Shown in pieces: positions 1,347-26,088 of a stretch of 33,788 nt of DNA. The notes under the pieces were generated by a model that worked only from the letters and a program-made list of their open reading frames with translations, was not told where the DNA came from and searched no databases. The stretch lies in NCBI GenBank assembly GCA_002713215.1, contig PAVO01000008.1:1-33788 (forward strand), in the 5' to 3' direction. The stretch's first letter is position 1. Each line of letters starts with the position of its first letter. Made by a program: the position numbers and the translations under genes. This stretch comes from Crocinitomicaceae bacterium (GTDB lineage: Bacteria > Bacteroidota > Bacteroidia > Flavobacteriales_G > Salibacteraceae).

Positions 1347-1348
1347 AG

Positions 1349-6468: not shown

Positions 6469-6481
6469 TTATATTAAGAGT

Positions 6482-9400: not shown

Positions 9401-9402
9401 GA

Positions 9403-10218
9403 TTAACTTTTAAGTGTTTTATCTGTTTGTTCAGCGCTTGGTTGAGTATCCTGTGCTGATTCTGGTGAATCAAAAAGTTTCATTATGTCATTGTCCCAGA
9501 GTTTGGTAATGTGGAATTTTATTTGCTGATCCTTTCCGTAATTTGATCGGGTTCTGAGTTGCAATGCGTAGTCATAGGTACTTCCTATCCAACGAAGTGA
9601 GAGCTTATTCCACCACCAACCATAATGGGCCTGAGTTTTTCTTATTTTACTTCTTGATTTCCCAAATGTGCTTAAGGCATGCGCGTGAAGCAGGGCATAT
9701 TTACCTGCCTTTTTCTTACCCACCTGTGCCATAATTTCAAAGGCAGAACAACCATTTAAATTTGCAATTATGGTATGCCATTTTCCATCGGCGGGAATGG
9801 TCGATAATTTGGCCGTACCCACTCTGCTGTCCGTTCCAAGTATTCCGTTTACTTCGAAATTCGTTTTGGGGTCAGTCGTATTCACACCCACATTTCCATT
9901 CTTATTGAAAAACAGACGGGGCTTTGCTTTTTCGTTCGGCATGGGCTGCATGATTCCCAAACCCTGCAATTCTTCGTTAAGCAATTCAAAAGTCCATTGT
10001 GCTTCGCTGTCTCGAATTTTACGATAGAACGATAGCAATCGATCCGATTCACCACCTTCCGGAGACAAAATTAGACCGTCGCTTAAATTTTTGGAAATGC
10101 CATCATCAACCTTATTGACCATAGAATCAATAAGGCTTGCAAAATTGTCCGCATTGGGCCGGTTTCCATTTTTGAAAACCAACTTCAAACTTTCTCTGTT
10201 TACCGGTTTATCGTCCAT
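9403..10218 (-). CDS. Fibre-like protein between the two large baseplate genes
   Basis: This 271-residue protein begins with KNGNRPNADNFASLIDSMVNK (about 16-36), a segment resembling fibre or structural proteins that use a FKTGxxPTxxxFxxLIDS pattern. It then has NGNVGVNTTDPKTNFEVNGI (about 110-129), close to the GxVGIGTxxPxxxLxVxG repeat common in tail fibres. The C-terminal half (about 135-250) is a compact domain rich in aromatic and basic residues (AHYGWWWNKLSLRWIG). No Pvc13-type fibre with shaft repeats and no endosialidase chaperone domain is present, so this is the best candidate for the target-recognition protein. It lies 6 bases after the J-like gene and 2 bases before the Pvc12-like gene. 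Function is inferred from the fibre-like motif and position. Confidence 0.6.
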   Translation of the reverse strand: MDDKPVNRESLKLVFKNGNRPNADNFASLIDSMVNKVDDGISKNLSDGLILSPEGGESDRLLSFYRKIRDSEAQWTFELLNEELQGLGIMQPMPNEKAKPRLFFNKNGNVGVNTTDPKTNFEVNGILGTDSRVGTAKLSTIPADGKWHTIIANLNGCSAFEIMAQVGKKKAGKYALLHAHALSTFGKSRSKIRKTQAHYGWWWNKLSLRWIGSTYDYALQLRTRSNYGKDQQIKFHITKLWDNDIMKLFDSPESAQDTQPSAEQTDKTLKS

Positions 10219-10224
10219 AATGAT

Positions 10225-13200
10225 CTAATTTTTATGCTTGAAAACAAAAATTGAATTGTTGGCTGTATCTTGTGGTTCTGGTTTCGGATCAGGCTTTGTT
10301 TTGTCATCCGGGTTATCTCCTACAATCATATCCAAACCAATTTCCAGGTGGCCAATACCAAGGTCCAGTTTTGTGTTGTTCTCCTGATTTCCGACCACGC
10401 TGATAATGTTATGTTGACTCACAGGAGAAAGGATTGACCAAGGCGTTGTTGCTTTTATCTGGTTTCCCTGTTCAAATTTTCCCAAACTAAATTGGTTAAG
10501 GCCCTTTCGCACTATATGCTCAATCGATAGTTTTTTAATGGTCATGATATAGGGTAAGTTTTCTATAAAACTGACCATCATGGTTGGTACTACACTTCCC
10601 CCTATACCTCCAAGTCCGTTGTCACTTTCAGAAACTGGTGAGAGGAAATCCGAAATATCACTGTTGAGTTTATTCAGATAATAACCGCCATTATCCTCGG
10701 GCCTGAATTCAACCATACAATTTACCAGCAGGTATTCTACGCTTGGATTAACTACTTCAATATCGATTAAAGAGCTTGCGTGTTGTTGCAGGAATGTCCT
10801 CATTTGAAAAAGAACATTTTCGCTGAAATAGTGACGCTCATTCCCGCTCCACCTTTTACTTAATACAATAACTTTTACTCTCCCTGGTACCTGTTGAAAG
10901 TATTTGTTGAAATTGGTACACTTAACCACTTTTACCTGGTCAAAATTCTCGAGAATTAACCGCTCGTAATCCCAAATTGAAACTGCCCTTGCTTTGTGCC
11001 TCAATCGCTCACTAATTCTCGTATACATTTGATCTCCAGATTCTGCTAAAACACCATTTCCCGACTCAGTGGGTTGCAAGACTTTTTTAATGTCGGGGAA
11101 TTTGCCTACCAGTTTTGTGATTTTATCCTTAGGAACAACTTGTCCCACAACTTCGGAATCGGTACTGTTACAAACCACTTCAACTGCATTCATAAAGATT
11201 CCCTTGATTTTGGGGTAATTTTCAACACCTGAATTGGTCGAAATGCGAATCCAAAAAAGAGAATTATCTTCTTTACCAAGTCCGTCTAGTCTCGGTAAAA
11301 TAAGTTCCACAATTCCTGATTTGGAAAACCCTAGGGTGTCGTCTCGAATTATTTCTCCATCCGCAAAGGGAAGCCATCCATTAACCAGAAAGTATTCCCA
11401 CGTTAAACCGTCGCTCTCAACTTCTACCGATGTACTTGATCTTAAAAACTGAAAGTAAATGGATACTGCCGTATTTGAGCTGACACCACTCAGGCCCAGG
11501 AATAAATAACCTTCTGAATCGAAGTTGCAAAGCAAGGTGCTTTTCCTAATTATTCCTTTTGTAATGGCCGTCTGCAAACCGAAGGGGGTAATGTGAAACA
11601 TTTCTCCCAGGTTTTCAAATGGTGTTTTTGGTTTAGATTGTTCGTTGTTGAATATTAAACGATCCGAAGCTTTGTATGAGATGGTAACGCCGGATACCTT
11701 GGGAGCTATAGGTTTATTAGGTAACGGAATTTGTACTTTATTGGTTGCGTTAAAGGTGGCAATGTTGGTGTAGTCCTTAAAATAAAGATCTCCCCCAAAT
11801 CCATAGCTGGGCGATGTGAGTGTGATTTTAATAAACCCGTCTTGTGTTTCAGCTGAATAGGTTAGTGGTGATTTTAAATCAAAATTTCGTGAGGTTACCA
11901 GGTTACCAAAATCATCAAAGTTTATGGTACTTGAATCGACTAACTGAACACTGGAATATCCTTGTGGAGTAAGGCAGTCTTTTGTTTGAAACAGGGATAC
12001 GGTGGAAATATCATCTGAATTGGTTGGCAGCCAATAACTGCTTGAAAGTACACTTATAGCAACCTGAAAAGACTCGTTGGTTATGGGTTGTGAATATCCA
12101 TCGTAGTAGGTGTCAAATCCACCAAAATCAGTAGGCAATGATTCCCATTCAAGATTAATGTTTAGCCCTTCGATTTTCTTTTGAAACAATTCGGGATATC
12201 CCATCATAAGAAAAGATCCCTTTAACGGAACAGGGCCAAACGCTTCAAAGGATTTATCCAGGGGCATTTTACCAATGTTATTGTAGAGCGAAACATTTTT
12301 TATCCGGTTCACTTCCACGTTAATGTCTATGCTGTCGATTAATACCCCCTTAAAAAAGGAATAGGCATATACCGGGGCATACTCATTAAGCTCAACTTTG
12401 ATTGAAGGCCACGTGAGCTGTTCCGTAATTTTAGAACTGGCTTCCAGTGCAGGGTCGGTTTCGTGTAGAACTAATTGAATAATGAAATAATCCTGGTTAT
12501 CTACATAATTAACACTGTAGCCTAGAAATTGCGCCCAACCCTTTTTAGTGGTGTAGCTAATTTTTAAGCTGTTGTTAAATACCTGATAGAATACCGTGTC
12601 CATGGTTGTTTTTCGGTTGTCTCGTATCTGTTTCAACAACTTCCAAAAAACATCCTGACCAGTATTGCTGTCCAGGTTAACCTGAAGTTCAATGGTTCGC
12701 TGACCTTCGTTCAAGATTAAAACCGGTGAGCCAATAATGAAGCCAACATCACCTACTTTATCCGCTTCAATTTGTATGTTTTGTACCGATTGTTTGTTGG
12801 CTCCAAATGCAAACCATTCATCCCTGGAGGATGCCTCTTTGCCTTTTGCCAGTAGCTTTTTTTTTTGGACGGAAGAGATCAATGGTTCATCTGTCCCTAC
12901 CGAAATGTATTTACTCGAGTTGAACAAGAGTGTTTGCATTTCCGCCAGTTCAATTTGATATAAAACCAATGGCTTAACGGTCTCGAAAGTGATATCTTCC
13001 TTGCTATCAAAGAGCTTGCCTGCCGACAAGGTGGTGCCCTTTTTAAGTTGCGAGTATTTTACTGTAGGTTTAAGTTCGAATGCAACTATAGCATCGGTTG
13101 ATTTTCCGTTGTAGTTCTTCTGTTGCAGAACTTCTTTGTAATAAAAATCCAAATGGCTTCTGGAAAGGTTGTTGATCTTCTCCTGAATGGTTTTATAAAG

Positions 13201-13869
13201 CATTGTAAACGTAATGTACATTGCGTTATTTGGCATGTGATTGCTTCTGGAAAGAATTCGATGCTCCAAGTACTCTTTAGTAAACTCCTGAATATGGATT
13301 ATTATTCGAAGAAAGTTGTGTAGCACTTCTGTAAAATCAATTTCTATTGGAGGTGGTTTAGTGCTAGGGTCAATTTTTCTACCAGAAGCAGGTACGTATT
13401 GAAGCTCTTTTAAATATTCTCTGTAAGGGGTGAGGTTGCTTTTTTGTTGGTTTAGCACGTCGACAATAACATTATTGATTTTATGTGCTAGTTTGTCTTC
13501 ACCTAAATTGCGTAACTGCTCATGCCACTTCTTGATTTTGTTGTACCACGTTGCAAGTGCGTCAATTACCGTCTGATCGGTTTCAGGATTATTACGTTTG
13601 GCATTGGCCAGGCTCTTAATTATCACCTCCAGATCGGTTAGTGGTTCATTAATTATGATAACCATATATATGACTGAATCGGCTTCAAGCAGCTTTTTCC
13701 AATTGCCATCTATTTTATTGTCGACATTGTAATAGTTAACGGTTTCCAGGTACGAAGCGATATACCCCAGTATATCCCAAAATGATCGTTGATCTATTTT
13801 GAATGGACTTTCCAACAGGTTCTTATCAGACCTCTTGCTTCTTAAAGTACCATTTCTTCTTATTTCCAT
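10225..13869 (-). CDS. Baseplate J-like protein (Pvc11/Afp11-like)
   Basis: The protein has 1214 residues. The C-terminal third contains a recognisable baseplate-J stretch (about 930-1010) with GDQMYTRISERLRHKARAVS, then DYERLILENFDQV and GRVKVIVLSKR. The N-terminal half begins with a helical region (QRSFWDILGYIASYLE) and continues through a long beta-rich middle. The final 30 residues are Pro/Lys/Asp-rich and probably flexible. It should pair with the 972-residue protein to build baseplate wedges. Its start codon overlaps the stop of the gp25-like gene by one base (TAATG), indicating translational coupling. The large size suggests added domains, as in cage-forming AlgoCIS baseplates (inference). 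Confidence 0.88.
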   Translation of the reverse strand: MEIRRNGTLRSKRSDKNLLESPFKIDQRSFWDILGYIASYLETVNYYNVDNKIDGNWKKLLEADSVIYMVIIINEPLTDLEVIIKSLANAKRNNPETDQTVIDALATWYNKIKKWHEQLRNLGEDKLAHKINNVIVDVLNQQKSNLTPYREYLKELQYVPASGRKIDPSTKPPPIEIDFTEVLHNFLRIIIHIQEFTKEYLEHRILSRSNHMPNNAMYITFTMLYKTIQEKINNLSRSHLDFYYKEVLQQKNYNGKSTDAIVAFELKPTVKYSQLKKGTTLSAGKLFDSKEDITFETVKPLVLYQIELAEMQTLLFNSSKYISVGTDEPLISSVQKKKLLAKGKEASSRDEWFAFGANKQSVQNIQIEADKVGDVGFIIGSPVLILNEGQRTIELQVNLDSNTGQDVFWKLLKQIRDNRKTTMDTVFYQVFNNSLKISYTTKKGWAQFLGYSVNYVDNQDYFIIQLVLHETDPALEASSKITEQLTWPSIKVELNEYAPVYAYSFFKGVLIDSIDINVEVNRIKNVSLYNNIGKMPLDKSFEAFGPVPLKGSFLMMGYPELFQKKIEGLNINLEWESLPTDFGGFDTYYDGYSQPITNESFQVAISVLSSSYWLPTNSDDISTVSLFQTKDCLTPQGYSSVQLVDSSTINFDDFGNLVTSRNFDLKSPLTYSAETQDGFIKITLTSPSYGFGGDLYFKDYTNIATFNATNKVQIPLPNKPIAPKVSGVTISYKASDRLIFNNEQSKPKTPFENLGEMFHITPFGLQTAITKGIIRKSTLLCNFDSEGYLFLGLSGVSSNTAVSIYFQFLRSSTSVEVESDGLTWEYFLVNGWLPFADGEIIRDDTLGFSKSGIVELILPRLDGLGKEDNSLFWIRISTNSGVENYPKIKGIFMNAVEVVCNSTDSEVVGQVVPKDKITKLVGKFPDIKKVLQPTESGNGVLAESGDQMYTRISERLRHKARAVSIWDYERLILENFDQVKVVKCTNFNKYFQQVPGRVKVIVLSKRWSGNERHYFSENVLFQMRTFLQQHASSLIDIEVVNPSVEYLLVNCMVEFRPEDNGGYYLNKLNSDISDFLSPVSESDNGLGGIGGSVVPTMMVSFIENLPYIMTIKKLSIEHIVRKGLNQFSLGKFEQGNQIKATTPWSILSPVSQHNIISVVGNQENNTKLDLGIGHLEIGLDMIVGDNPDDKTKPDPKPEPQDTANNSIFVFKHKN

Positions 13870-14333
13870 TACTGGTCTCCTTTATTAAGACTTTGGGTTA
13901 CTTGCTTGTGGTAGAGTTGTGGAATATCGGTACCCTCTACTTTGTAGTATGGGAATACCAGGTTGAACCGGGTGTTGGTTGTTTGTATGGAATAATCCAG
14001 CCTGATGCTGATAATGCCATCCTGATATTGGGAATGGTCTATAACAACTTCGTTTAATATAATACGGGGTTCGTAATTGATAATAGCCGTTCTAATCAAC
14101 TCACTGAGGAAGTGAATTTTTGAATTGGAAATCGACTCGAACAAGTACCGTTGAAGGTCAGATCCGTATTGCGGTAGCATTATCCGTTCTCCCAGACTTG
14201 TTCCCATAAGAATTTCCAGGGATTGTTTAATGTCTTCCTCTGCCTCAACCATGTCAATTCCTCCGTTATCATCGTTGTAAAACGTAGGAGGAAATCCCCA
14301 GCCTCTGCCTAAAAAAGATTTGTCTTTATTCAT
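13869..14333 (-). CDS. gp25-like baseplate wedge protein (Pvc9/Afp9-like)
   Basis: The 154-residue protein matches the GPW/gp25 family. It has the GERIMLPQYGSDLQRYLFE segment (48-66) and the signature EPR motif at residues 88-90 (NYEPRI). Family members are inner baseplate wedge proteins that link the baseplate to the first sheath ring. Length is typical. The gene starts immediately after the spike gene stop (no intervening base) and ends in a one-base overlap with the J-like gene. No unusual features. Confidence 0.94.
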   Translation of the reverse strand: MNKDKSFLGRGWGFPPTFYNDDNGGIDMVEAEEDIKQSLEILMGTSLGERIMLPQYGSDLQRYLFESISNSKIHFLSELIRTAIINYEPRIILNEVVIDHSQYQDGIISIRLDYSIQTTNTRFNLVFPYYKVEGTDIPQLYHKQVTQSLNKGDQ

Positions 14334-16181
14334 CTAGTTAATGTTTACCATGGTTCCTTTTACATTCGTTTGACCACTGCTGGTCATTGTACATTCTGTG
14401 TTTCCTGTTATTGAAGTTGTTTGGTTGCCTGTTAAATTAAGGGTGCCACCGGTGGCCTTTACCGATTGGTCTCCTGTAGCTTCAATGGTTGCTCCTTGAA
14501 TTTTTACTCCCTGTGCGGCTTTTAGCGTCAGGTCCGATTTGCTTTCTACGACAATACCGCTATCGTTCATTTGTATTTGATTTCCATTCTGATCGGTTAG
14601 GGTAATTCCTTTATCGTTATCACTCAATACCATTTTATTACCCCCAGAGGTCTGAACCGTAATATTCTTGTCTTCATCACTAATAACCATGGTATTTTCG
14701 CCAGGGGTCAATACCGTTATAATCTTCTTGTCATCATCAAATTTCAACTGTAGTTTGCTTTGAGTAACTAGTGTTTTAATGGTGTTTTTTTCATCAATTT
14801 GCGGAACAGGTGGAGGGAAACTCTTGCTGCTGTAGAGGCATCCCATAATTACAATGTCGGTCGGATCGTCATTGACGAAGGCCAAAATCACTTCATCGTT
14901 AACCTCGGGCATAAAAAAAGCGCCGATCCCATTTCCTGCATAGAAGGTTGAAATTCTTGCCCACACGGGATCGCTGTCCTTGCCCCAGGCTGGTACCGAT
15001 ACCTGAATTCTAAATTTTTTATCGGGGTCCGAGTCAACTTTGGTTACAACTCCAATTTGCAGGCCGGCAACTGAAGGAATAATGCCCGATGAACTCGGAC
15101 TTGAACTCGCATTTTTTTCGGCAAATGATGTTGGTTCAATTCCAATATTGGCCTTTGTGATCCATTTACCTCCATCAATGGAGTGGGTGATCCCAGTAAT
15201 AAATGAATTGCCATTAAAACGATCACTCAGGCCCAGGAGTTTAATGGTTGAATTAACCTTGGCTTTGGCTGTTCCATTGAAAGTAACATTTCCCTTAAAT
15301 CGGGACAAACTCAACCGCTCGTATATTCCGGAGGCCCATATTTTAAGCTCATCTTCAGTTAAACCTGCTGAAGTAGTAAGTTCCATTTTTCCAGCGGACA
15401 ATACTTCTTCCAGATCTGACTCAGGGATATTACCCATGGAGCTAAGGGTTGGATCTTCAGCCGTTCCTTTAATCATATCCTGATCATCAGAACTCCAGGC
15501 ACTGCATTCTACTCCTTCATATTGATCACTGCCGTCTACCTCGGTATCGAAATCGATCATGTCATAGCCAAATTGAACTTGTAATTCAGGTTCATCAGTT
15601 GGATTAGGTTTGGCTATAATTACCTCATCAACGTTGGTAGATACCTGCATTCCGTAGAGTCCTGCCCGGGTATTAATAAAATCCCAGTCAGTGCTATTTA
15701 CTCGTGGCAATTGCGGATTTTCAAATGATGTTGCGGTCACTTTTGGAGTAAATCCAGCATCATTTATGATTTTTTCCATTATAGCACTATCGGTCATTTT
15801 GCTGTATATGGTTGATTTTTTGCCCTTGGTTAGTTCGGCAGCTTTGTCCTTGAGGGTAATTTGTAAACTGGATACACTACCGCTATCTACCCTGATGGAT
15901 TGTTTGGTGACAACTCCCTTAAAAATAGGGTCGTTATCCGATTTGTAGCCTAGTTTAATTTCAATTTCGGCTCCCGGCTTAAATACATCAGAATCCGAAA
16001 TTTCGAAAGATTGGCTTTCTGCGCTTCCATCGCGAAATGTTATTTCGGCAGAGCCTATAACACCCACTTGTTGGGTTATGCTCATACTCATCACTTCATA
16101 CGATCCGGGAATAGGTGTTCCTCCCGATGATATCGCATAAGAAAATGCATTTGTTTCTTCAACTAACGGAGAGCTGGGCAT
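14334..16181 (-). CDS. VgrG/gp5-like central spike protein (Pvc8/Afp8-like)
   Basis: The 615-residue protein has a gp27/gpD-like N-terminal part (about 1-350) and a gp5-type OB-fold (about 375-450, GVVTKVDSDPDKKFRIQVSV and MPEVNDEVILAFVNDDPTD). A beta-helix needle of short repeating strands follows (about 475-615), rich in Gly, Thr and Ser (for example SDLTLKAAQG, GGTLNLTGNQT). It should form the trimeric spike, tipped by the PAAR-like protein encoded at 957-1346. The needle ends at MVNIN without an added effector domain. It starts 4 bases after the LysM gene and abuts the gp25-like gene. Confidence 0.92.
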   Translation of the reverse strand: MPSSPLVEETNAFSYAISSGGTPIPGSYEVMSMSITQQVGVIGSAEITFRDGSAESQSFEISDSDVFKPGAEIEIKLGYKSDNDPIFKGVVTKQSIRVDSGSVSSLQITLKDKAAELTKGKKSTIYSKMTDSAIMEKIINDAGFTPKVTATSFENPQLPRVNSTDWDFINTRAGLYGMQVSTNVDEVIIAKPNPTDEPELQVQFGYDMIDFDTEVDGSDQYEGVECSAWSSDDQDMIKGTAEDPTLSSMGNIPESDLEEVLSAGKMELTTSAGLTEDELKIWASGIYERLSLSRFKGNVTFNGTAKAKVNSTIKLLGLSDRFNGNSFITGITHSIDGGKWITKANIGIEPTSFAEKNASSSPSSSGIIPSVAGLQIGVVTKVDSDPDKKFRIQVSVPAWGKDSDPVWARISTFYAGNGIGAFFMPEVNDEVILAFVNDDPTDIVIMGCLYSSKSFPPPVPQIDEKNTIKTLVTQSKLQLKFDDDKKIITVLTPGENTMVISDEDKNITVQTSGGNKMVLSDNDKGITLTDQNGNQIQMNDSGIVVESKSDLTLKAAQGVKIQGATIEATGDQSVKATGGTLNLTGNQTTSITGNTECTMTSSGQTNVKGTMVNIN

Positions 16182-16185
16182 ATCG

Positions 16186-16857
16186 TTATTTTATTGGCGG
16201 TAGGTAGAGCTTGGTTCCCGGAGCCAAATTTCTAAAATTGACAATCTTATTGTACCTGGCGACTTCCATATAGTAGCTCGGATCGCCATACACGTTGTTA
16301 CATATGAGTGGCAAGGAATCGCCTTGCCGTACTTCTATTAAATGCGTTAGGTCTGGGGATTTGTTATTTGCTTCTTTTGAAAGGGTGGAGGCATCAATGG
16401 CTTTTACAAAAGAACAGGAGGCTTTTGCACGAAGCGGAATCCCGTTTTGCTGAAAGAGGGTGTATTCGAGTTTAAGCGAAGTAAGTTTACATTTAAACAC
16501 CAGTGTACCCCAGTTGATCACCAAATAATTGGGCTCGTGGATGTCTCCATTGTAATCGAAACACACCTTTTTGAACAAGGTAATTTGTGCCCCAATCGGG
16601 AGCTTGCTTACAGGCAATAGAGTAGGAGCATCAATGGCTCCGGTTGCATCGAATATTACATCAAAGGAAATGGTTTCAGGAGGAATGCCTTTGAACATTA
16701 GTGGAGTTCCCGGAGCGCCAACGGGGACATCTTCGTTGTAGTCAACCTTATGTTCATGTGTATAGGAAGCAGGGTTAATAATAAACACCGTACTCCAAGC
16801 CAATGGAATAGAAAACTTGTTGTCTTTAAATGAAGCTATTTTTAATCGATCATGCAT
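16186..16857 (-). CDS. LysM-containing CIS tube/baseplate protein (Pvc7/Afp7-like)
   Basis: This 223-residue protein has an N-terminal CIS-tube-type domain (about 1-165, with LMFKGIPPETISFDVIFD) and a C-terminal LysM-like domain (about 172-221, HLIEVRQGDSLPLICNNVYG to LAPGTKLYLPP). It corresponds to the gp53/Pvc7-type protein that joins the tube and spike complex to the baseplate. The LysM fold here is usually structural rather than peptidoglycan-binding (family knowledge). The ATG directly follows the stop of the DUF5908 gene (TAAATG). There is no signal peptide. Confidence 0.9.
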   Translation of the reverse strand: MHDRLKIASFKDNKFSIPLAWSTVFIINPASYTHEHKVDYNEDVPVGAPGTPLMFKGIPPETISFDVIFDATGAIDAPTLLPVSKLPIGAQITLFKKVCFDYNGDIHEPNYLVINWGTLVFKCKLTSLKLEYTLFQQNGIPLRAKASCSFVKAIDASTLSKEANNKSPDLTHLIEVRQGDSLPLICNNVYGDPSYYMEVARYNKIVNFRNLAPGTKLYLPPIK

Positions 16858-17016
16858 TTATCGCTCATTCATTCGATTCAACTCTTTTTTTATCTCTCGC
16901 CGGCATTCCTTGAGAATGTCTTGTTTTATTTTTCTTACATCAATATTATCCGACTTGGACTTGGGCGAATCTTGAACCTTAACTCGTATTACTAATTCTC
17001 TAATTTCTATTGCCAT
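16858..17016 (-). CDS. Small DUF5908 protein of the eCIS
   Basis: This 52-residue reading frame starts MAIEIRELVIRVKVQ and ends in a basic, helical segment (ECRREIKKELNRMNER). That layout, a short beta-strand start and a charged helix, is characteristic of DUF5908 proteins found between tube and LysM genes in Bacteroidota eCIS loci, the position occupied by Pvc6/Afp6. It fills the only space between the second tube gene (11 bases upstream) and the LysM gene, and its stop is adjacent to the next start. The molecular role is unknown to me; context suggests a small baseplate or tube-initiation component. Confidence 0.85.
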   Translation of the reverse strand: MAIEIRELVIRVKVQDSPKSKSDNIDVRKIKQDILKECRREIKKELNRMNER

Positions 17017-17027
17017 AGCTTATAATT

Positions 17028-17492
17028 CTAGAGTACTTTGAAATAACTGTAAGCGAATTCCATAGATTCAATTGCAATTTCGTTATTCATGGAATTGAAG
17101 TCTGAAATGGACCACTTTACGGGCCACGCATTAGCAAAACTCCATGATTTAAGCGGTGTGCCCTGTTCGTTCAGCAGTTTAACAACGATGGTTTTTGTTG
17201 TCATAGTTTCCGTAAGTGAAATTGGCCCCAGGGATAATCCTCCTGTTGGATCCAGGCACCATTTTGCAACTGCTGAGTCTTTGGCAACCAGCCCTCTTTT
17301 TAACACAAGGTTGGTGTATTTTACCTGGGTGGGAACCCTATGAATATAGGGGTTCCCACCTTCAGTAATTTCCTCTATACCCCTTTCCAATGCAATTCCC
17401 GATACTTCTTTAAAAGACGCATCGGACTTACCGGTTACCCCGGAAAAGGATAACTGAAAATAAAACGCAACGGGGGGATATACTTCACTCAT
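17028..17492 (-). CDS. eCIS tube protein, second copy (Pvc5/Pvc1-like)
   Basis: The 154-residue protein belongs to the gp19-like tail-tube family. Features include FYFQLSFSGVTGKSDASFKEV near the N-terminus, the GNPYIHRVPTQVKYTNLVLKRG segment, and SWSFANAWPVKWSISDFNSM followed by IAIESMEFAYSYFKVL at the end. It is clearly related to its 152-residue neighbour but diverged. In AFP/PVC-type systems one such protein forms the bulk tube and another the first tube ring near the baseplate. By position next to the DUF5908 and LysM genes, this one is the likely initiator (inference). Confidence 0.92.
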   Translation of the reverse strand: MSEVYPPVAFYFQLSFSGVTGKSDASFKEVSGIALERGIEEITEGGNPYIHRVPTQVKYTNLVLKRGLVAKDSAVAKWCLDPTGGLSLGPISLTETMTTKTIVVKLLNEQGTPLKSWSFANAWPVKWSISDFNSMNNEIAIESMEFAYSYFKVL

Positions 17493-17494
17493 GG

Positions 17495-17953
17495 TTAGGC
17501 GTTTGCAATGGTTACACCTTCATGAGCCAACTCCATGGTTTCTACCGCAACTTCATTAGCATCAGATTTTAAATCCGGGCTGGAAATTTTAGTAGGCCAT
17601 GCATTGGTCAACGTCCATGTCATAGTAGGAGATCCCTTTTCATCCAGCAATTGAATGGTAACGGTTTCTCTTTTTATCGTATTCATCTTAATGGCGTCAT
17701 ACCATTTCCAGAAGTTGTTGTCCTTAACAAAAACTCCTTTTTTGAGTGTTACATTACCCGTTTTAGCAATTCCCGGCATTTTAATGGTCGAAAACTGCTT
17801 GCTATCGCCGTGGCGATATTCTATGGGTTGTGTTTCAGTATCCAATCCTGAGATTTCCTGAAATGATACTGTATTATCTTGTGAGCCTAGTTTTACAGTA
17901 AAATAAAACTTCGGTAATGGCCACACATTATCTTGTACTGAACCGTCTGACAT
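17495..17953 (-). CDS. eCIS tube protein, first copy (Pvc1-like)
   Basis: This 152-residue gp19-like tube protein has FYFTVKLGSQDNTVSFQEISG near the start, MPGIAKTGNVTLKKGVFVKD in the middle and MTWTLTNAWPTKISSPDLKS followed by VAVETMELAHEGVTI at the end. It should stack as hexameric rings to form the inner tube inside the sheath. It lies directly after the sheath gene, across the largest gap in the operon (36 AT-rich bases, 17954-17989), and 2 bases before the second tube gene. The next-to-sheath position suggests it is the major tube subunit (inference). Confidence 0.93.
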   Translation of the reverse strand: MSDGSVQDNVWPLPKFYFTVKLGSQDNTVSFQEISGLDTETQPIEYRHGDSKQFSTIKMPGIAKTGNVTLKKGVFVKDNNFWKWYDAIKMNTIKRETVTIQLLDEKGSPTMTWTLTNAWPTKISSPDLKSDANEVAVETMELAHEGVTIANA

Positions 17954-17989
17954 AATTCAAATTTTTAAATTTTTAATAATGATTAATTA

Positions 17990-19933
17990 CTACGCTTTTT
18001 GCATTTGTTGCTGGAACGTGATTTCTATAAATTCTGCTGGATGAGATACAGCCACTTTTACAGCAACACGCATAATTCCATTAAGAATATCATCTCCCGT
18101 CATGGTACTTCCCAGACCAACACTAACAGAATAAGCATCTGCAGGCTTTGGTCCTACCAGTCCACCTTGTTTCCACAGGCCAAATAAGAAATTACCAATC
18201 ATGCTTTTCACATTCACCCAGGTTCCTGCGTCATTGGGTGCAAATACATAGGCCTTGGATGCATCTTGAACAGATTGCTCGATGTAAATCAAGGTTCTTC
18301 TTACATTGATGTACCTCCAATCGTTTGAATTGCCATCCAATGTTCGGGCGCCCCATACCAGATTTCCTCGTCCTGTAAAAGCACGAATGGCACAAACCGA
18401 CTTACCGTTAATAGGCATGTTGAGATCTTCCTGTGCTGCGTGGTCAATATTGATGGACGGAGCAACGGTGCTTTGAACCGCAACATTTGCTGGAGCAATC
18501 CATACCCCTTCATTATTGTCTACCGTCGTGTATATACCAGCCATACCGGCACTTGGAGCAATCAAATTCATTTTTGACATAATGGTTGTCATAAGCAACT
18601 TGTATGATTTGCTCAAGTTTTGAAAGATTACATCAGCTTGTTTTAGTGCGTCTGTTGAGGCTCCTTGTTGGGCGTAAATGGCAAAGGCTTTAGCCATGTT
18701 TGCATTTAGTCCTTTGTCCGGATCGGTAAATTCAATCGTCAATAGTTGAGTTATTTGACCATAATTTGCAGGGTCAACGTTTTGGTAACTGATATCGCCC
18801 GTTTGATACACGGTGGTGTGTAACCAGGGATAATAGGCAGCCGCATAACTTGCAAATTTGGGAAGGGTAGGAGTAACACTGTCCCTAAACTGGTCAACAC
18901 TTGTTTTTCCTACTAAAGGCTCTGAATAACCTCCGGGGATATCCAGAACTGCAACCCGATTCATCATTTCGCCGCAATGATTTATCATTTCACCTTGTAA
19001 AGAATATGCACTTGCATATCTTTTTTCAAGGGTCGCTTGAGATGGATCCTGAATTTCTACCAAATCCGGAATAAGCAGCATAGTAGGCTCGGTCTCTTTC
19101 TTCAGCAAAGTGATCGCTCTTGAGAATCCGGAAGTATCTCCGATAGTGCTTTTGGAGTAATCATAGGTGCCAATGGTCATTATGTAGCAGTCGCCTCCAC
19201 CATTTTCGTAGAAGAATTTTAAACTGCTGTACATTCTGTAGTTAATGGTTTTAGCGGTTAGTGTGTAAGCATATCCACCTGTACAGAAATCGGCATCTTC
19301 CACCAAATTGGCTAAGGTCTGTTGCGCATCGGCAAGCGCCTTTTTTTGCGCGTCGGTTGCACTGTTGGGTGCAGCGGCATTTGCCGTGTCAACTGCTTTT
19401 TGAGCTGCGTTCAAGGCGGTTATATTCGGGTCAGCATTATATGCAGCAATGCTATCGGCAACCTGAAGACTGTTCAATAAGGCTTGTTGAGCAACCACTT
19501 CGGCTTTTAAAGCAGGATCATCTGGTTTTGCGTCCGAAGCAGATTGAGCAGCTTTTACAGCAGCCTCTGCGTCAGCAGTTTTGGTTGCTTTTACGGTAGT
19601 TGGATCACCGCCGGCCTTTGTTAACGCATCCTTGGCATTGGTTAATGCCGTTGCAGAAGAATCAGCTTCAGCCGTAAGTTCATCCAATCGCTCTTGTAGA
19701 ACATTCGAGCTAAGGGAGTATTGAACCTTTGGAGGCTCGCTACCGAAGATTAATAAGAATTCAGCCAAGGAGGTTACCTTAACTGCTTTGTTTAATAGAC
19801 TTTTTCCATTGAAAGAAGTCTTTCCTGTGTAGCCGATAAACGCCGGGACGGCGGTAGGTACCGGAACAACAGAGTTTCCAAAAGCATCCAGTTCCTGGAT
19901 GTAAACCCCTGGGGTTTTCATAGGTGCAGACAT
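17990..19933 (-). CDS. Contractile sheath protein with a large Ala-rich insertion
   Basis: This 647-residue phage-tail-sheath-family protein starts with the usual MKTPGVYIQELDAFGNSVVP and AFIGYT segments (5-36). The conserved core resumes at YRMYSSLKFFYENGGGDCYI (232-251), and the C-terminus (PAEFIEITFQQQMQ) is typical. Between residues about 75 and 215 lies a roughly 140-residue insertion (DNA 19289-19711), very rich in Ala, Asp, Lys and Gln, that reads as helical, coiled-coil-like repeats. It interrupts a region that is continuous in ordinary sheaths. Only one sheath gene is present, unlike PVC and AFP which have several. It may decorate the particle surface or affect contraction (inference). 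Confidence 0.93.
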   Translation of the reverse strand: MSAPMKTPGVYIQELDAFGNSVVPVPTAVPAFIGYTGKTSFNGKSLLNKAVKVTSLAEFLLIFGSEPPKVQYSLSSNVLQERLDELTAEADSSATALTNAKDALTKAGGDPTTVKATKTADAEAAVKAAQSASDAKPDDPALKAEVVAQQALLNSLQVADSIAAYNADPNITALNAAQKAVDTANAAAPNSATDAQKKALADAQQTLANLVEDADFCTGGYAYTLTAKTINYRMYSSLKFFYENGGGDCYIMTIGTYDYSKSTIGDTSGFSRAITLLKKETEPTMLLIPDLVEIQDPSQATLEKRYASAYSLQGEMINHCGEMMNRVAVLDIPGGYSEPLVGKTSVDQFRDSVTPTLPKFASYAAAYYPWLHTTVYQTGDISYQNVDPANYGQITQLLTIEFTDPDKGLNANMAKAFAIYAQQGASTDALKQADVIFQNLSKSYKLLMTTIMSKMNLIAPSAGMAGIYTTVDNNEGVWIAPANVAVQSTVAPSINIDHAAQEDLNMPINGKSVCAIRAFTGRGNLVWGARTLDGNSNDWRYINVRRTLIYIEQSVQDASKAYVFAPNDAGTWVNVKSMIGNFLFGLWKQGGLVGPKPADAYSVSVGLGSTMTGDDILNGIMRVAVKVAVSHPAEFIEITFQQQMQKA

Positions 19934-19948
19934 AGATATTTATTTAAA

Positions 19949-20980
19949 TTAGACATGTATAATCGTTGAAAGCAGGTACGAACCACTGCCCGTATTCGCT
20001 TTATATTTTCTTAATTCTTCGACGTTGGGATTTGGTAAGTCCCGGTTTAACTGTTTGTAGCGATTTGAAAAATCGTTTGCATAAGTCATCTTCAATTGGG
20101 GAGCTGTTGTAAGGTTAGCCTGTAACTTCAATGCATATTTCGAAGTAAATACCTGAGCTGTCTGTCCTCCAATAATCTGTTTCTCCTGCGGTCCACTATA
20201 CTCATTTCCATCGCTACCGAGAACAGTAAGGTTCTGGACTTCGATTTTTCGTTTTTTGGGTACCACAATTTGGTACTCCAGAAAGGCAGATCGGGCGTTG
20301 AAGTTTAATGTAAGCTGTGATTGAGCTGGGTTGTTAGCAAGTAGTTTTTGAACGTTCAGGCAAAATACACCAACGCAGTTTCCACTTAACTCTTGTAGGT
20401 TCAAGAAGAAAGTTTCACTTAGTGAACCATTAATCCATAGTTGATAAAGCCCTTCATCGAGAGAAGGCAATTTTAGAAGATAATTGGACACTCCACTAAT
20501 GGTTTCGGAATACATGGTTTCTCCGCTTTTGGTTTTCACCTCCAGAGTTGAACTCCCTTCAGGTAAAGTGACGTTAAAAGAGACAGATCGCCGGGTTACT
20601 ACATCGGCATTTGAAACATTATTGCCTTGCTGAACCAGGGAAGAATTAGTTGGATTTATGCCGTTCTCGAAATAGAATAACTCTGTGTCATTGAGGAATG
20701 GAACGTCAGTATAATTAAAGAATAGGGAATCGTTATTAATAACCTGAAAATAAAGATTACCCAAATTGGTAAGTTCGTTTTGTAGGTTCGTGTTTTGCGG
20801 ACTATCGGTTGCCACATAATAGGAAATGATATTTTCCTGTTGACTAACCATTATACCATAATTGGTAAGAGACCTGGAAGTATTATGAAATGGAAGCAAT
20901 GTCAAATACTTGAATCCACCATCATTGAAATAAGAGTTTACTATTTCCAAATCGATCCATTTATGGTAGGTAGAATTCAT
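19949..20980 (-). CDS. Unknown eCIS protein, possible cap adaptor
   Basis: I do not recognise a defined family in this 343-residue protein. It has no signal peptide. A beta-rich middle (about 130-200, with SVSFNVTLPEGSSTLEVKTK and GLYQLWINGSLSETFFLNL) resembles an immunoglobulin-like sandwich. The C-terminal part has ANDFSNRYKQLNRDLPNP. The gene sits between the DUF4255 cap gene (adjacent, no gap) and the sheath gene (15 bases). In AlgoCIS a second protein acts as a cap adaptor at the distal end. Size and position make this protein a candidate for that role, but sequence alone does not show it. Confidence 0.55.
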   Translation of the reverse strand: MNSTYHKWIDLEIVNSYFNDGGFKYLTLLPFHNTSRSLTNYGIMVSQQENIISYYVATDSPQNTNLQNELTNLGNLYFQVINNDSLFFNYTDVPFLNDTELFYFENGINPTNSSLVQQGNNVSNADVVTRRSVSFNVTLPEGSSTLEVKTKSGETMYSETISGVSNYLLKLPSLDEGLYQLWINGSLSETFFLNLQELSGNCVGVFCLNVQKLLANNPAQSQLTLNFNARSAFLEYQIVVPKKRKIEVQNLTVLGSDGNEYSGPQEKQIIGGQTAQVFTSKYALKLQANLTTAPQLKMTYANDFSNRYKQLNRDLPNPNVEELRKYKANTGSGSYLLSTIIHV

Positions 20981-21565
20981 TTAATTCGATTTTGAATTAG
21001 GGGTTCCCTGTAATCCTCCAACGCCAGTGACTTCTTTTGTAATCAGTCCTTCGCTAATGGCTATCATTCTCACTTTGTAGATTATTGAAGGGACATATTT
21101 GGCTCCAATCCCACTCCAGATATGGCTGAGTTCATTTATCGGGAGATTGAATATCTCGAAGGTTAATTTCTCAACGGGAGATTTCATCTCCGGGTTTTTT
21201 TGCTTGGTGAAATAAGAATTGGTTTGAAAAACTCCGATGACAGCAGAAAGCATTTTCAAAGCTTCCTGATAATTGCCGGAATCGTAATTGGCAGATATCA
21301 GCAGGTATAAATTCAAATAGACAGGAGGAGAAGATTTACCGAAGCTGTTTGAACCACCTGCCTGATATTGCCCGTTGGAGTTTATCGTTGTTTCGTGTTC
21401 AAGATTGATAACAGAAATAACAATCTTATTTTCTATGTTTTGGGTTACACTTCCATCGGGATTAATAAGGCTGCTTACAATTACCCGGTCGTCATCAATT
21501 CCAAATGTGGTTTTAATCTCTCGGTTTAAAAAGTCAGATACGAATGTGAGTGCATTTGAAATCAT
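20981..21565 (-). CDS. DUF4255 tube-terminating cap protein (Pvc16/Afp16-like)
   Basis: The 194-residue protein matches the DUF4255 N-terminal domain of Pvc16-type cap proteins. It has MISNALTFVSDFLNREIKTTFG at the start, NKIVISVINLEHETTIN, PPVYLNLYLLISANYDSGNYQEALKMLSAVIGVFQ and LPINELSHIWSGIGAKYVPSIIYKVRMI. Cap proteins bind the distal end of tube and sheath and stop elongation. The order DUF4255, unknown, sheath, tube is seen in Bacteroidota eCIS loci. It starts 3 bases after the small membrane-protein gene and abuts the next gene. Confidence 0.92.
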   Translation of the reverse strand: MISNALTFVSDFLNREIKTTFGIDDDRVIVSSLINPDGSVTQNIENKIVISVINLEHETTINSNGQYQAGGSNSFGKSSPPVYLNLYLLISANYDSGNYQEALKMLSAVIGVFQTNSYFTKQKNPEMKSPVEKLTFEIFNLPINELSHIWSGIGAKYVPSIIYKVRMIAISEGLITKEVTGVGGLQGTPNSKSN

Positions 21566-21568
21566 AGT

Positions 21569-21889
21569 TTATCCTTCTTCTTTTTTTACAAGTGTTTCTA
21601 TAGCTCCTACAACCGTTCTGGTAAAATAAATTCCAGCAATGCTGAAAGCATATGCGGCAATAAACAGTGAAGTACCCTTTAAATATCCAAGAATGTCATC
21701 CATAATGGGTTTGGGAGCGTATTTCTGAAGCAGGTAGGTGAATATGGTAGCCATTGGTAAAGCCAATAAAAGAATAGCCAAAACCCACAGGAATTCTTTG
21801 GCGAACAGTTTTTTAACTGCCGCTAAAAATTTCTTTAGTTTTCCCTGTCCTTTTGCCAGGGCTGCCTGTTCTTTAGCAAGTGTTGTCAT
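21569..21889 (-). CDS. Small two-helix membrane protein at the head of the eCIS operon
   Basis: This 106-residue protein has a basic, amphipathic N-terminus (1-32, rich in Lys and Ala) and two hydrophobic helices (about 33-55, LWVLAILLLALPMATIFTYLL; and about 73-95, SLFIAAYAFSIAGIYFT). It ends in a short charged tail and has no recognised domain. Its start overlaps the GH18 stop by 4 bases, so the two are probably translated together. Small size, two helices and coupling to a putative glycan hydrolase recall a holin/lysin arrangement for particle release. Alternatively the pair may form a membrane anchor for the CIS. Both are inference. Confidence 0.8.
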   Translation of the reverse strand: MTTLAKEQAALAKGQGKLKKFLAAVKKLFAKEFLWVLAILLLALPMATIFTYLLQKYAPKPIMDDILGYLKGTSLFIAAYAFSIAGIYFTRTVVGAIETLVKKEEG

Positions 21890-23637
21890 GGCTTATTATT
21901 GTTTTTACGATCAACTATTTTTTTGGCGAAGTAGAGGGCAACTGCACCTGCAATAAACCCAAGAATTAGAACGACTACTTTATCGTCAAAAACCTTTGTC
22001 CACCTTACTACAACTATTAGAAAGAGCAAGACGACGGAGGTGTAATAAATGGTATTGGCAGTACTTCCAAAGAAGAACATTCTGGTGTTGGGTTGAAACA
22101 TGGATATGAGAAGTCCAACTCCTCCGTAGAATACCACAAAGGACATGGTAGCCATAAGTACCGTTTTATAATCGCTAATTTGACGGAGTAGACTTTCCAC
22201 ATTAGCCAGTTGACTCCATATTCCAGATGCGGCCGTATCAACTGTGGTTGCATTGGAATCGGCAACAACCCCTACACCTGGTCTTATTATAGTGTCGCAC
22301 ATGTTTTTAGCAATTGCCTCCCACAAGTCGGGATAACCTTTATCATAGCCCAGGGCCCAGATTCCCATTCCCCTAAGGTTTTTCGATTTGATATAATTCA
22401 GTTTGACCGAAAGAGTTGAATCATCGTCGAACCAACATTGCCTGAAGTGAGTTTGGCCCGTATCCATTACATAGCTACACCAGGCAGTCTGACTAATTGA
22501 ATCGTATTGAACTGGAGCATTAATTTGGGATCGGATATAATCGTAGGTTCTTGCACCCACATATCCCTTGGCATAAGCTCCCTTGTTTTCAATAGTTGTA
22601 TTCCAAATGCCTCCATAAAAGGGGAGAGCAAGAATAAGCTTTGAAGGAGGGATTTGATTGGCCAGGTATTGGTCAACTGAAAGAGACAGGTTATAGGGTT
22701 CCCAGATTTTTCCGCTAAATAATCCGTCAATCGGGCCAGCCACTTTACTGGTAGATCCATAATAGCCATAACCCATTATTACAAATTGATCTATGGCGGG
22801 TATAAGTACCTGATAGTTTAAGCTTTTTGCCCAGTCTACACTGGGAACAGCGAGATAAACCAAATGCTCTTTATTGACCTTTTTTAGTTTTTCACTTAGG
22901 TTATTGATGAAATAGGAATATTCTTCTTTTTGTTCGTGCGCAACCCCTTCAAAGTCGATACATACTCCATGGGCTCCTCGCATTTTTATGAGATCAACAA
23001 CATTTTTGATCAGTGTGTTTTTTGAATCATCACTTTCAAGAAGTTGGCGGTTTTTTTCTTCACCAAAATTGCTTAGGGTTAGTAAAACCTTAACACCATT
23101 CTGATTGGCCGAGTCTATCAATGGGGTGGTTTCCCAATCGTAAGTAGTTATCGCTTCACCATTGGCAGGATTAACTTCATATGAAAAATAAGCAATGGTT
23201 GTAAGCAACGAATAGTTTAAGCTATTGTAGAGGTCGCTTTCCCAATGTGGATACCAACCAAAGACTTCATATTTAGGTTCAAAAGTCTGGCCGGGTTTGT
23301 ATGCCTCTACTTTAAGTCCGAGTTTCTCGTGGTCTACCACATAGGGAGATTTTTTGCCTTTTCGAACTTTGCTATGTTGTTCGTGAACAAAACGATGAGC
23401 GACTTCAACGGAATCTACATGGTGAAAGAAATTTTTGAATGAAAGTTTTTTTTCTATTTTTTTTAGGTCGGCCTTATACTTAGCTTCTTTCTTTTTAAAT
23501 CCGGCTAGATCGGATTTGAAGTTTTTACTTCCCTTGCTGGAGGTTGAATCTTTAGCGGCATAGGTTGTATTTATGCCCATTAATATATAAGCCAGAACTA
23601 AAGAAATAATACACTTTATGGAATGGCTCATTTTCAT
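21886..23637 (-). CDS. Signal-peptide GH18-like protein with three C-terminal membrane helices
   Basis: This 583-residue protein opens the eCIS operon. It has a signal peptide (1-27), a Lys-rich charged linker (28-115), a GH18 TIM-barrel-like domain (about 120-445) and three hydrophobic helices (about 491-512, 527-546 and 553-571). The GH18 catalytic DxxDxDxE motif reads HGVCIDFE at 223-230: D228 and the acid E230 are kept, but the first two Asp are His and Cys. Other GH18-like segments are FVIMGYGYYG and LALPFYGG. The protein should be exported and anchored in a membrane, with the barrel outside the cytosol. Bacterial GH18 enzymes cleave chitin-like or peptidoglycan glycans. A role in wall opening, release or anchoring of the CIS is inference from context. 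Confidence 0.85.
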   Translation of the reverse strand: MKMSHSIKCIISLVLAYILMGINTTYAAKDSTSSKGSKNFKSDLAGFKKKEAKYKADLKKIEKKLSFKNFFHHVDSVEVAHRFVHEQHSKVRKGKKSPYVVDHEKLGLKVEAYKPGQTFEPKYEVFGWYPHWESDLYNSLNYSLLTTIAYFSYEVNPANGEAITTYDWETTPLIDSANQNGVKVLLTLSNFGEEKNRQLLESDDSKNTLIKNVVDLIKMRGAHGVCIDFEGVAHEQKEEYSYFINNLSEKLKKVNKEHLVYLAVPSVDWAKSLNYQVLIPAIDQFVIMGYGYYGSTSKVAGPIDGLFSGKIWEPYNLSLSVDQYLANQIPPSKLILALPFYGGIWNTTIENKGAYAKGYVGARTYDYIRSQINAPVQYDSISQTAWCSYVMDTGQTHFRQCWFDDDSTLSVKLNYIKSKNLRGMGIWALGYDKGYPDLWEAIAKNMCDTIIRPGVGVVADSNATTVDTAASGIWSQLANVESLLRQISDYKTVLMATMSFVVFYGGVGLLISMFQPNTRMFFFGSTANTIYYTSVVLLFLIVVVRWTKVFDDKVVVLILGFIAGAVALYFAKKIVDRKNNNKP

Positions 23638-24357: not shown

Positions 24358-26088
24358 CTATTCCTTCAGGATTCGTAAAACGTGAGACTCTCCTTCAGTT
24401 GAAGTTAATCGAATAAAATACATACCTGCGTTTAACTCATCGAGGTCAAATTTGGCTTCATTGGTAACCTGAAATTTTGAGTCAAGAGCTTTTCCTAATA
24501 CGTTCATAAGTACAACACTCTGAGCAGTGTTAAATCCAGTAATGGTTACTTCATTAGAAGTTGGGTTAGGGTAAGCTGTAATTGTTCCTGTGTTACTAAA
24601 ATACGGGCCAACCGAAGTGGTGTCAACCGGTTCTTTTGGTAACGGATAAGGATTGGTGGCAGAATCATTTACTGAAGCTCCCTGAACTGCATTGGTACCT
24701 CCATAAGTCCAGTTAGAGGCTACGAAGTTGTTGCCATCGGGTCCGGTTCCATCTTTACGCTTTCCCCAGCTGTTCAGGTATTCCCAAATCTCTCCGGTTC
24801 CATCTACATCAACCAATCCGTAACGATCAATTACTCTTCCGTTTTCGTATAATTCCATGGCGTCATCTCCGGTGAAGTTGGTGGCCGTAGTAGTACCACC
24901 TCCTGCAGCTGTATCTAAGAAGTCCGCATCGAAACCGAAAAAGGTTTTGAACTCAGCAGGTTGCCTGGTAACAAAATAGGTTTTGCCTTTTGTTGCCGCA
25001 ACTTTGGGAAATGTAAATTCAATTCCATCCGTTCCACCACCGTTATTGCCGCAACCAAGCGCGTAAATACTTAAGTCGGGAATGTCAGACAAAGCCATGA
25101 CTTCAACCAGGTTTGGATCTGGGTTTTGCCCACCTTTATTCATTATTCCAACTAATTTAAGTTGACGTGTAACGGGGTTATCGTTGTCATCTTTTCTTAT
25201 GGTAAGCATAACCGTATCGTTGGCAAAAACACCGTTGGTTGGATTTTGAAGGACGAATAAAATAGTCTCATCCGGTTCAACTATAGTATCATCAATCACG
25301 GTAAATGAGAAATCAAGTCTTTCATCCATTCCGCCAGCGAAACCAATGGATGTTGGAGAAGTAAAGGTGATGTCCTTGGTGATGTCTCCGGTAATTCCGA
25401 TTGCTTTTACCTCAGTCGAACTTGCCAGACCGTTGCTGTTTTCCAGATAGACGCCAATGTTAACCGTTCCCGCATTTTCATCAACGGAAAAAGTTCGGTA
25501 TCTCGCATGGATAATAGGCTTGTTTTGGCAACTGTTCAATTTGCCAGGTGAACCATACATCTTTCGTTGTCTATAGATTAATCCGCTAAAGGTGGTTGAC
25601 CGTTGCCAGTTAAACGCGAGCGAATTATCGGTGCCTGGGTCACATAACTCTATTGAGGACCCTTCGCCAGCAGCAGTAAGCGGCCAGGGAGCGGCGTTGT
25701 CGTAGGTAAGCGAATCCAATACCTTACCGGTACTGTCCTCAAGCCTTAATTCCAGCCCTCCGTTTAGGGCAAATCCCGCATAGTCAAAACAGGGAACCCC
25801 CCATAATTGAACAAATGCCGTGGAATCGTTACTTAACACAACCATGTCTCCAGGGCCTAAACTGAATTTAGGAAAAGTGAATCGGACGCCGTTTGGAGCA
25901 GTTCTTGGAATGTTCATACCTTCCATTTGAATGGTAGTCGCTCCATTGTTTAGAATTTCGATATACTCGGGGCCGTTATTTGGTGTAATGGGATTGTAGC
26001 TTATTTCGTTTATTACGAGATCCGATTGAGCAAACAGAGAAAACTGAGAAACCAAGCAGATTGTTAGAAGTGATAGAAGTTTTTTCAT
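24358..26088 (-). CDS. Secreted lamin-tail/Calx-beta protein with type IX sorting domain
   Basis: This 576-residue protein has a signal peptide (1-21, ending LFAQ) and a lamin-tail domain (about 22-140, starting LVINEISYNPITPNNGPEYI). A Calx-beta-like domain follows (about 198-300, FSVDENAGTVNIGVYLEN and EPDETILFVL), then a second lamin-tail-like region (about 310-480). A type IX secretion C-terminal sorting domain closes it (about 505-576, TAYPNPTSNEVTI to GMYFIRLTSTEGE). It should be exported and displayed on or released from the outer membrane; its ligand is unknown. A near-consensus promoter box on the minus strand, TACCTTTC (26112-26119), lies shortly upstream. It is transcribed toward the eCIS operon but is separated from it by a terminator and 720 bases. 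Confidence 0.9.
   Translation of the reverse strand: MKKLLSLLTICLVSQFSLFAQSDLVINEISYNPITPNNGPEYIEILNNGATTIQMEGMNIPRTAPNGVRFTFPKFSLGPGDMVVLSNDSTAFVQLWGVPCFDYAGFALNGGLELRLEDSTGKVLDSLTYDNAAPWPLTAAGEGSSIELCDPGTDNSLAFNWQRSTTFSGLIYRQRKMYGSPGKLNSCQNKPIIHARYRTFSVDENAGTVNIGVYLENSNGLASSTEVKAIGITGDITKDITFTSPTSIGFAGGMDERLDFSFTVIDDTIVEPDETILFVLQNPTNGVFANDTVMLTIRKDDNDNPVTRQLKLVGIMNKGGQNPDPNLVEVMALSDIPDLSIYALGCGNNGGGTDGIEFTFPKVAATKGKTYFVTRQPAEFKTFFGFDADFLDTAAGGGTTTATNFTGDDAMELYENGRVIDRYGLVDVDGTGEIWEYLNSWGKRKDGTGPDGNNFVASNWTYGGTNAVQGASVNDSATNPYPLPKEPVDTTSVGPYFSNTGTITAYPNPTSNEVTITGFNTAQSVVLMNVLGKALDSKFQVTNEAKFDLDELNAGMYFIRLTSTEGESHVLRILKE

Follow-up and report, generated by a model that had tools for sequence, protein, structure and literature searches.

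The gene pair at the head of the operon

The DNA analysed here, a 33,788-nucleotide stretch of contig PAVO01000008.1 from a Crocinitomicaceae bacterium (GCA_002713215.1; hereafter the window), carries on its minus strand the cluster of a contractile injection system (CIS), the operon of which is headed by two genes for putative membrane proteins; all window features given below lie on this strand. The first gene (21886-23637), designated GH18-3TM on the basis of its open reading frame (ORF), its PF00704 match and its CIS-linked relatives, encodes 583 amino acids and gives a single match within its own genome. Residues 1-28 (23554-23637) resemble a signal peptide in hydropathy, with a hydrophobic segment at 4-22 followed by TYA-A, which we read as the cleavage site. 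Glyco_hydro_18 (PF00704) matches residues 126-432 (22342-23262) with E=5.5e-36 and 125.3 bits as compared to the Pfam cut-off of 29.6, and the domain is predicted to be periplasmic. Alignments reveal an intact DxE catalytic motif, D228-F-E230 (22948-22956). Residues 493-571 (21925-22161) hold three C-terminal hydrophobic helices, supported by the alignments and placed at 493-511, 526-544 and 553-571 by a simple hydropathy scan.

The second gene (21569-21889), designated 2TM, encodes a protein of 106 amino acids with two predicted helices, one (36-54) seen at the strict threshold of the hydropathy scan and the other (76-94) at a looser one only; charge counts suggest an N-in/C-in orientation. 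Its NCBIfam matches are weak, to transporters only, and far below the cut-offs of those families. The sequence-only reading of this DNA had described an exported GH18-like protein with three C-terminal helices and a small two-helix protein, coupled by a four-base overlap and leading the CIS operon. This description was confirmed by both ORFs, by the ATGA shared at 21886-21889, and by the Pvc16 cap gene, which begins three bases after 2TM and is followed by the remaining CIS cluster. The topology suggests that both proteins lie outside the core particle. A role as cargo or effector was also considered for the pair and rejected in view of the signal peptide and the membrane helices.

The cap gene (Pvc16/DUF4255; 20981-21565) was assigned through PF14065 and the PDB entries 9r9n, 7adz, 7b5i and 9wt1. 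Between it and the sheath gene stands a gene of 343 amino acids (19949-20980), which has relatives in many CIS loci, no Pfam family above cut-off and no convincing PDB match. The remaining cluster (957-19933), identified through Pfam, PDB and annotated counterparts of Aureibacter, continues with sheath, tubes, LysM tube, spike, gp25 and Afp11, and then with fib271, Afp12, a tape measure of 1262 amino acids, an AAA ATPase and a DUF4280 PAAR-like gene. Spike and gp25 were recognised via the Aureibacter counterparts, and Afp12 was named from its position and relatives only. The cluster thus holds the gene set of an extracellular-type CIS (eCIS): cap, sheath, tube, LysM tube, spike, gp25, baseplate, tape measure and AAA ATPase. 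The closest solved CIS are PDB 9r9h, 9r9n and 9rce, and a literature search by these entry codes gave no paper. On the same strand, 720 bases upstream of the operon, lies a gene (24358-26088) for a Lamin-tail-domain protein with a type IX secretion system sorting domain.

Association of the pair with contractile injection system loci

A survey of related loci for the same pair, which the sequence-only reading had proposed, located 22 genomes or plasmids that carry both a CIS and the GH18-3TM gene, 17 of them with 2TM adjoining the latter. The 22 are the window, L002 and L003 (near-identical), L005, G001, G006, G007, G010, G011, G013, G104, G128, G132, G198, G322, G435, G436, G439, G440, Aureibacter tunicatorum pAT3, Persicobacter psychrovividus pPP2 and Persicobacter sp. 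JZB09. Identities to the window proteins at CIS loci range from 19 to 60% for 2TM and from 23 to 55% for GH18, and the order GH18, 2TM, Pvc16 recurs at most of the loci; with relatives this diverged keeping to CIS loci and largely to one gene order, the pair is not a chance arrangement. The four-base overlap is present in 10 loci, i.e. the window and nine others. In Aureibacter, 2TM precedes Pvc16 apart from GH18. The annotated tape-measure gene of this plasmid CIS (NZ_AP025308.1 172180-183711, L180) encodes 3843 residues, which would predict a very long particle.

Among 42 genomes of the order, a GH18 match reaching into the helix part was recorded in 11 of the 12 with the tape-measure family and in none of the 30 without it (Fisher 2.8e-9, kinship uncorrected); G002, with a GH18 match lacking the helix part, is counted among the negatives. 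The pair is therefore not found mostly away from CIS loci, the finding that had been named beforehand as refuting the link. The twelfth tape-measure genome, G003, retains a tape-measure fragment of 172-180 residues at a decayed locus from which the pair is absent. At this locus (L164, G003:C47) cap, sheath and tubes are kept, the tape measure is about 172 residues long, and the stretch read gave no Afp11, Afp12 or gp25 match.

In a sample of 395 genomes drawn evenly from the phylum, the tape-measure family occurs in 75, of which 32 were viewed at the locus, including one remnant (G364). GH18-3TM stands at the CIS in six of the 32 (G000, G128, G104, G198, G132 and G322) and was not seen in the other 26, i.e. 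25 loci and the remnant. The negatives of the GH18 profile in this sample are weak owing to its shallow depth, as at most three candidates were scored per genome and the known CIS-linked copy of G198 is not among the matches listed. The 2TM profile A2 matched strongly in G000 and G128 only; it missed G104 and G198 and so cannot measure the absence of 2TM.

A tree of 42 CIS loci was built from spike, ATPase, gp25 and Afp11 by a quick search with the Shimodaira-Hasegawa-like approximate likelihood ratio test (SH-aLRT) as sole support, with PERS on a long branch. The 16 loci with GH18-3TM and the 26 without it require two changes on this tree as compared to 13 in shuffles, and none of 500 shuffles was as low. 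A single branch holds 21 of the negatives, almost all of them having short tape measures, and the others form a clade of five (G214, G246, G329, G356 and G360); in 12 of the 26, the stretch beyond Pvc16 is shorter than 1.2 kb or Pvc16 is not recognised.

The association persists where gene order has changed. In G011 the pair is retained at a distance of about 250 kb from the CIS core, and the GH18 gene has moved behind the ATPase in G322 and G132 and behind the tube genes in Aureibacter. Such retention in altered places argues for a function together with the CIS. These observations support the GH18-3TM/2TM pair as a dedicated companion of CIS loci. A carbohydrate-feeding enzyme was also considered and rejected: helix-less GH18 genes are common among the matches listed, and the GH18-3TM subfamily behaves otherwise. 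L010, L012 and L013 have no CIS gene within their stretches of 2-4 kb.

The GH18 domain and the short fibre

Among solved structures, the GH18 domain scores best against YaaH, ydhD and a cortical-lytic enzyme, which we take to be SleL. All three are spore-type enzymes, and the glycan of peptidoglycan is therefore a likely ligand. The catalytic motif of GH18 enzymes is DxxDxDxE; D228 and E230 are present in the window protein, and the two earlier Asp are replaced by His and Cys. E230, Tyr290 and Trp427 are conserved in the first ten alignment rows, and D228 is nearly so. Among 21 CIS-linked GH18-3TM proteins aligned (that of JZB09 left out), DxE is intact in 16 and Asp has changed to Asn in two (G007 and G439). 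The catalytic Glu is missing in three: it is replaced by Gln in G104 and G198, where the β-8 Trp is also altered, and by Ile in Aureibacter, where the β-6 Tyr is gone too. The Glu was probably lost at least twice, once in the closely related G104 and G198 and again in Aureibacter, whose partner in the tree, G007, has retained it. The Glu-less proteins still keep the fold, the helices and the CIS linkage. In G104 (L108 10919-12358) and in G198, an M23 (Csd3-like) peptidase gene is located two genes upstream of the one for the Glu-less protein, and the peptidase might supply cutting in this one lineage.

Phage records were searched for the same protein. GH18-3TM matched four of 50,697 records, none covering more than 80% of the query, and one viral contig (L155) carries the GH18 part only. 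A phage origin of GH18-3TM was thus rejected, as the phage relatives found cover the GH18 domain alone. In both phage records viewed at the locus, L196 (MT835950.1) and L197 (MT837554.1), GH18 is followed by a gene that, from its motif, is presumably amidase-like; L197 also has, about 550 bases upstream of GH18 on the same strand, an ORF of 146 amino acids with two hydrophobic segments. To us these neighbourhoods resemble bacterial spore-type regions more than phage lysis genes.

A second companion of GH18-3TM is fib271, a short fibre-like gene of 271 amino acids (9403-10218) between the Afp11- and Afp12-like genes. It directly follows the former, the place reported for eCIS fibres (PMC12923769). 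Of the 395 phylum genomes, six have full-length fib271, exactly those in which GH18-3TM was located at the CIS, and three more have partial matches. In the order it occurs in 10 of 42 genomes, all GH18-3TM-positive, with weak partial matches in G004 and G031. Among 72,556 plasmid records it is present in three, which are the three with CIS-linked GH18; 30 records have a GH18 match, and three of these were viewed at the locus. Altogether, 18 genomes or plasmids have both fib271 and GH18-3TM, a count that leaves out L002, L003, L005 and G440, where contigs end, and in 26 CIS loci neither was found. Longer fib271-related fibres occur in four of these 26 (G403, G294, G218 and G032). In G011, fib271 is split into two pieces (G011:C1:4700617-4701347), and this is the genome with the displaced GH18 pair.

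The C-terminal module of fib271 is conserved, in contrast to that of the usual eCIS fibres, and a constant tip suggests a constant partner. We propose the membrane module as this partner; the conservation alone would be explained equally well by an unchanging external target. A profile of 14 fibres matches All3316 (7b5h_AE) over residues 1-39 with E=2.9e-5, its sole CIS match in the PDB; its better match there is the Bdellovibrio fibre bd2133, via the middle part. The window fibre alone has no PDB match at E<=0.1. All3316 is Cis13, the fibre-like anchor of the thylakoid CIS (tCIS) of Anabaena, and after deletion of the membrane helix, 9 of 14 particles were free-floating (PMC8894136).

Across 15 positive loci, the fib271 C-terminal module and the GH18 domain covary in their distances (correlation 0.88) more strongly than any other of the 78 pairs of parts compared. 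The correlation is 0.85 with four core proteins held constant, with none of 2000 permutations as high. Omission of the three Glu-less loci lowers it to 0.73 raw and 0.72 partial (4/2000), which several core pairs then exceed. With the loci thinned to nine it is 0.79, and core pairs reach 0.92. This covariation may reflect a ligand common to both parts, their joint exchange or a shift shared by the Glu-less lineages.

Additional genes for exported or membrane proteins precede GH18-3TM in some loci. In G007, G435, G436 and G440 it is preceded by a gene for an exported protein of about 415 amino acids, and that in turn by one for a DUF4407 membrane protein. The two genes together occupy L181 1703-4123 and have relatives in G007, G436 and G440. 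The exported proteins of G007 and G435 share 26% identity; DUF4407 was identified by Pfam in the G435 copy, the G007 copy being cut by the end of the stretch. G104 and G198 have an exported protein of 523 and 552 residues, respectively, in the corresponding place. Such upstream genes appear to resemble an envelope complex more than a two-gene lysis cassette, and the DUF4407 and ∼415-amino acid proteins are possibly further parts of such a complex in one sub-branch.

Proposed docking at the envelope, its rivals and known systems

We favour a role of the pair in envelope docking or egress of a T6SS-like CIS (T6SS, type VI secretion system) in one Bacteroidota branch over cell lysis, a firing trigger or glycan pairing, and hold it at a little below an even chance. 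The exported GH18 domain would be held by its three helices at the outer face of the inner membrane and would sit at the peptidoglycan, with 2TM joining GH18-3TM within the membrane. Together they may mark and prepare a docking or exit site, which the baseplate would reach via fib271, the short fibre resembling Cis13. The GH18 domain of most lineages might in addition cleave glycan strands locally, much as TagX acts on stem peptides for the T6SS, and in those with a dead active site it would bind only. The particle would then act in a membrane-attached, T6SS-like manner instead of bursting the cell. Topology, peptidoglycan binding, contact of the fibre with the membrane module and mode of action are all predictions of this reading.

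Several observations weigh against it. The co-occurrence with CIS is partly explained by common descent. The pair itself, which alone was searched, has no Pfam match to TssJ, TssL or TssM at E<=0.1. 2TM was not recognised in four of the 22 loci, namely G322, G132 and both Persicobacter plasmids (JZB09 read only around GH18), where the best E values of the broader profile A5 (0.03 for G322, 0.4 for G132 and 0.1 for the whole pPP2 plasmid) are not convincing. Hydropathy revealed no C-terminal membrane helix in the fib271 rows scanned, so that this fibre would need a partner to anchor; GH18 and fibre are moreover predicted on opposite sides of the membrane, and direct contact hardly explains their covariation. 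Structure predictions were too poor for use, both for fib271 alone (mean predicted local distance difference test score, pLDDT, 32.5) and for GH18-3TM with four close rows (mean pLDDT 44.2). Finally, the membrane region of the GH18 protein from Persicobacter matches Phage_holin_5_2 weakly, with E=0.45 and 11.2 bits, far below the cut-off of 29.2.

This last match belongs to the explanation that the sequence-only reading had found attractive, a holin/lysin-like exit module, in which 2TM would form a holin-like pore and the tethered GH18 would cut the wall, bursting the cell and releasing the particles. Class II holins have two helices in an N-in/C-in orientation, and 2TM, by hydropathy and charge count only, has this shape: small, with two membrane helices and both termini inside. 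The spore-type relatives of the domain, the DxE motif intact in 16 of 21 proteins, the overlap in 10 loci, which suggests coupled translation, and the lysis cassette upstream of the Afp system (PMC12961389) all agree with it. However, the catalytic Glu is lost in three of 21 proteins and Asp altered in two more, none of the ten two-helix proteins scanned matches a holin family of Pfam at E<=1, and the window 2TM has no PHROG match at E<=0.05. Phage relatives were found for the GH18 domain only, 2TM is unrecognised in four of 22 loci, and the genes usually come first, beside the cap gene, so that the proteins would be made before the particle. We therefore consider lysis unlikely. The earlier interpretation thus retains the dedication of the pair to CIS loci and loses the holin/lysin version in its details; the envelope anchor, which it had named as the alternative, fits better, with the anchoring itself read from topology and position.

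The pair might also sense wall or membrane stress and make cytoplasmic particles fire into the producer's own envelope, comparable to the role proposed for CisA of Streptomyces, a membrane protein with an extracytoplasmic domain that is needed for firing (PMC12237407). A GH18 domain that binds glycan and does not cut it would suit such a sensor, and catalytic residues are indeed lost in some lineages; CisA, compared here by its description, is nevertheless single-pass with a solute-binding-like domain (PMC12237407), and a firing trigger appears quite improbable. Least probable is a pairing through glycan, in which the fibre tip and GH18 bind the same glycan, and GH18 masks, trims or presents it in the producer to keep released particles from sticking to kin. 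The fibre/GH18 correlation, highest of the 78 pairs in its raw form, agrees with this, but the excess is owed partly to the three Glu-less loci, core pairs exceed it in the thinned set, and an enzyme of the inner membrane does not reach the outer surface.

Envelope docking or egress remains our favoured reading. In its wider form, which is possible yet rather doubtful, an eCIS-type branch would have an envelope port of its own, made of a wall-binding and in many cases wall-cutting GH18-3TM together with 2TM, with docking via the conserved fib271, yielding anchored, contact-dependent weapons whose wall passage is independent of the T6SS membrane complex, and the GH18 enzyme would have become a scaffold at least twice. 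How eCIS-type particles leave or contact their producer is, in our view, unsettled for most lineages, and a compact module that accompanies one branch in several groups of Bacteroidota, even when relocated, offers a concrete handle. If the reading is true, the mode of action could be predicted from genome sequences with the GH18-3TM module as marker.

No mention of the pair was found in the CIS literature searched, which was largely open-access, in part available as excerpts, and without preprints; the sole eCIS chitinase found there is a predicted Dickeya effector. YaaH, ydhD and the cortical-lytic enzymes differ in that they match the GH18 domain only and not the three-helix part, and are spore proteins with no CIS. 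A CIS that works in T6SS mode and belongs to the same wider family is known from Aureispira. Its system is listed as a T6SS homologue (PMC11566945). AlgoCIS of Algoriphagus has related sheath, cap and baseplate; its tomograms show cytoplasmic particles and never membrane-anchored ones, and the words chitinase, hydrolase and holin are absent from that main text. The Afp lysis cassette of pADAP likewise places wall-directed genes upstream of an eCIS cluster, but those named are endopeptidase, holin and lysozyme, and not GH18 (PMC12961389).

Three systems are precedents for docking or egress. Hbor_38620 of the haloarchaeal T6SS is a putative anchor whose membrane gene lies upstream of the CIS core and tracks one clade; it differs in its six helices, its cytoplasmic domain and its archaeal host, and no hydrolase is described for it in the available text (PMC11566945). 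The Anabaena tCIS belongs to the same wider CIS family, and its All3316/Cis13 matches the N-terminus of the fib271 profile; there the helix is inside Cis13, whereas here the fibre is helix-less and the membrane genes are separate, and GH18 is unmentioned in the portion of that report at hand (PMC8894136). TagX of the Acinetobacter T6SS, a wall hydrolase bound to the membrane, shares its locus with a contractile system and has been proposed to open the wall, a role considered here for GH18-3TM, but it is an L,D-endopeptidase of another enzyme family and serves a classical T6SS (PMC5061870).

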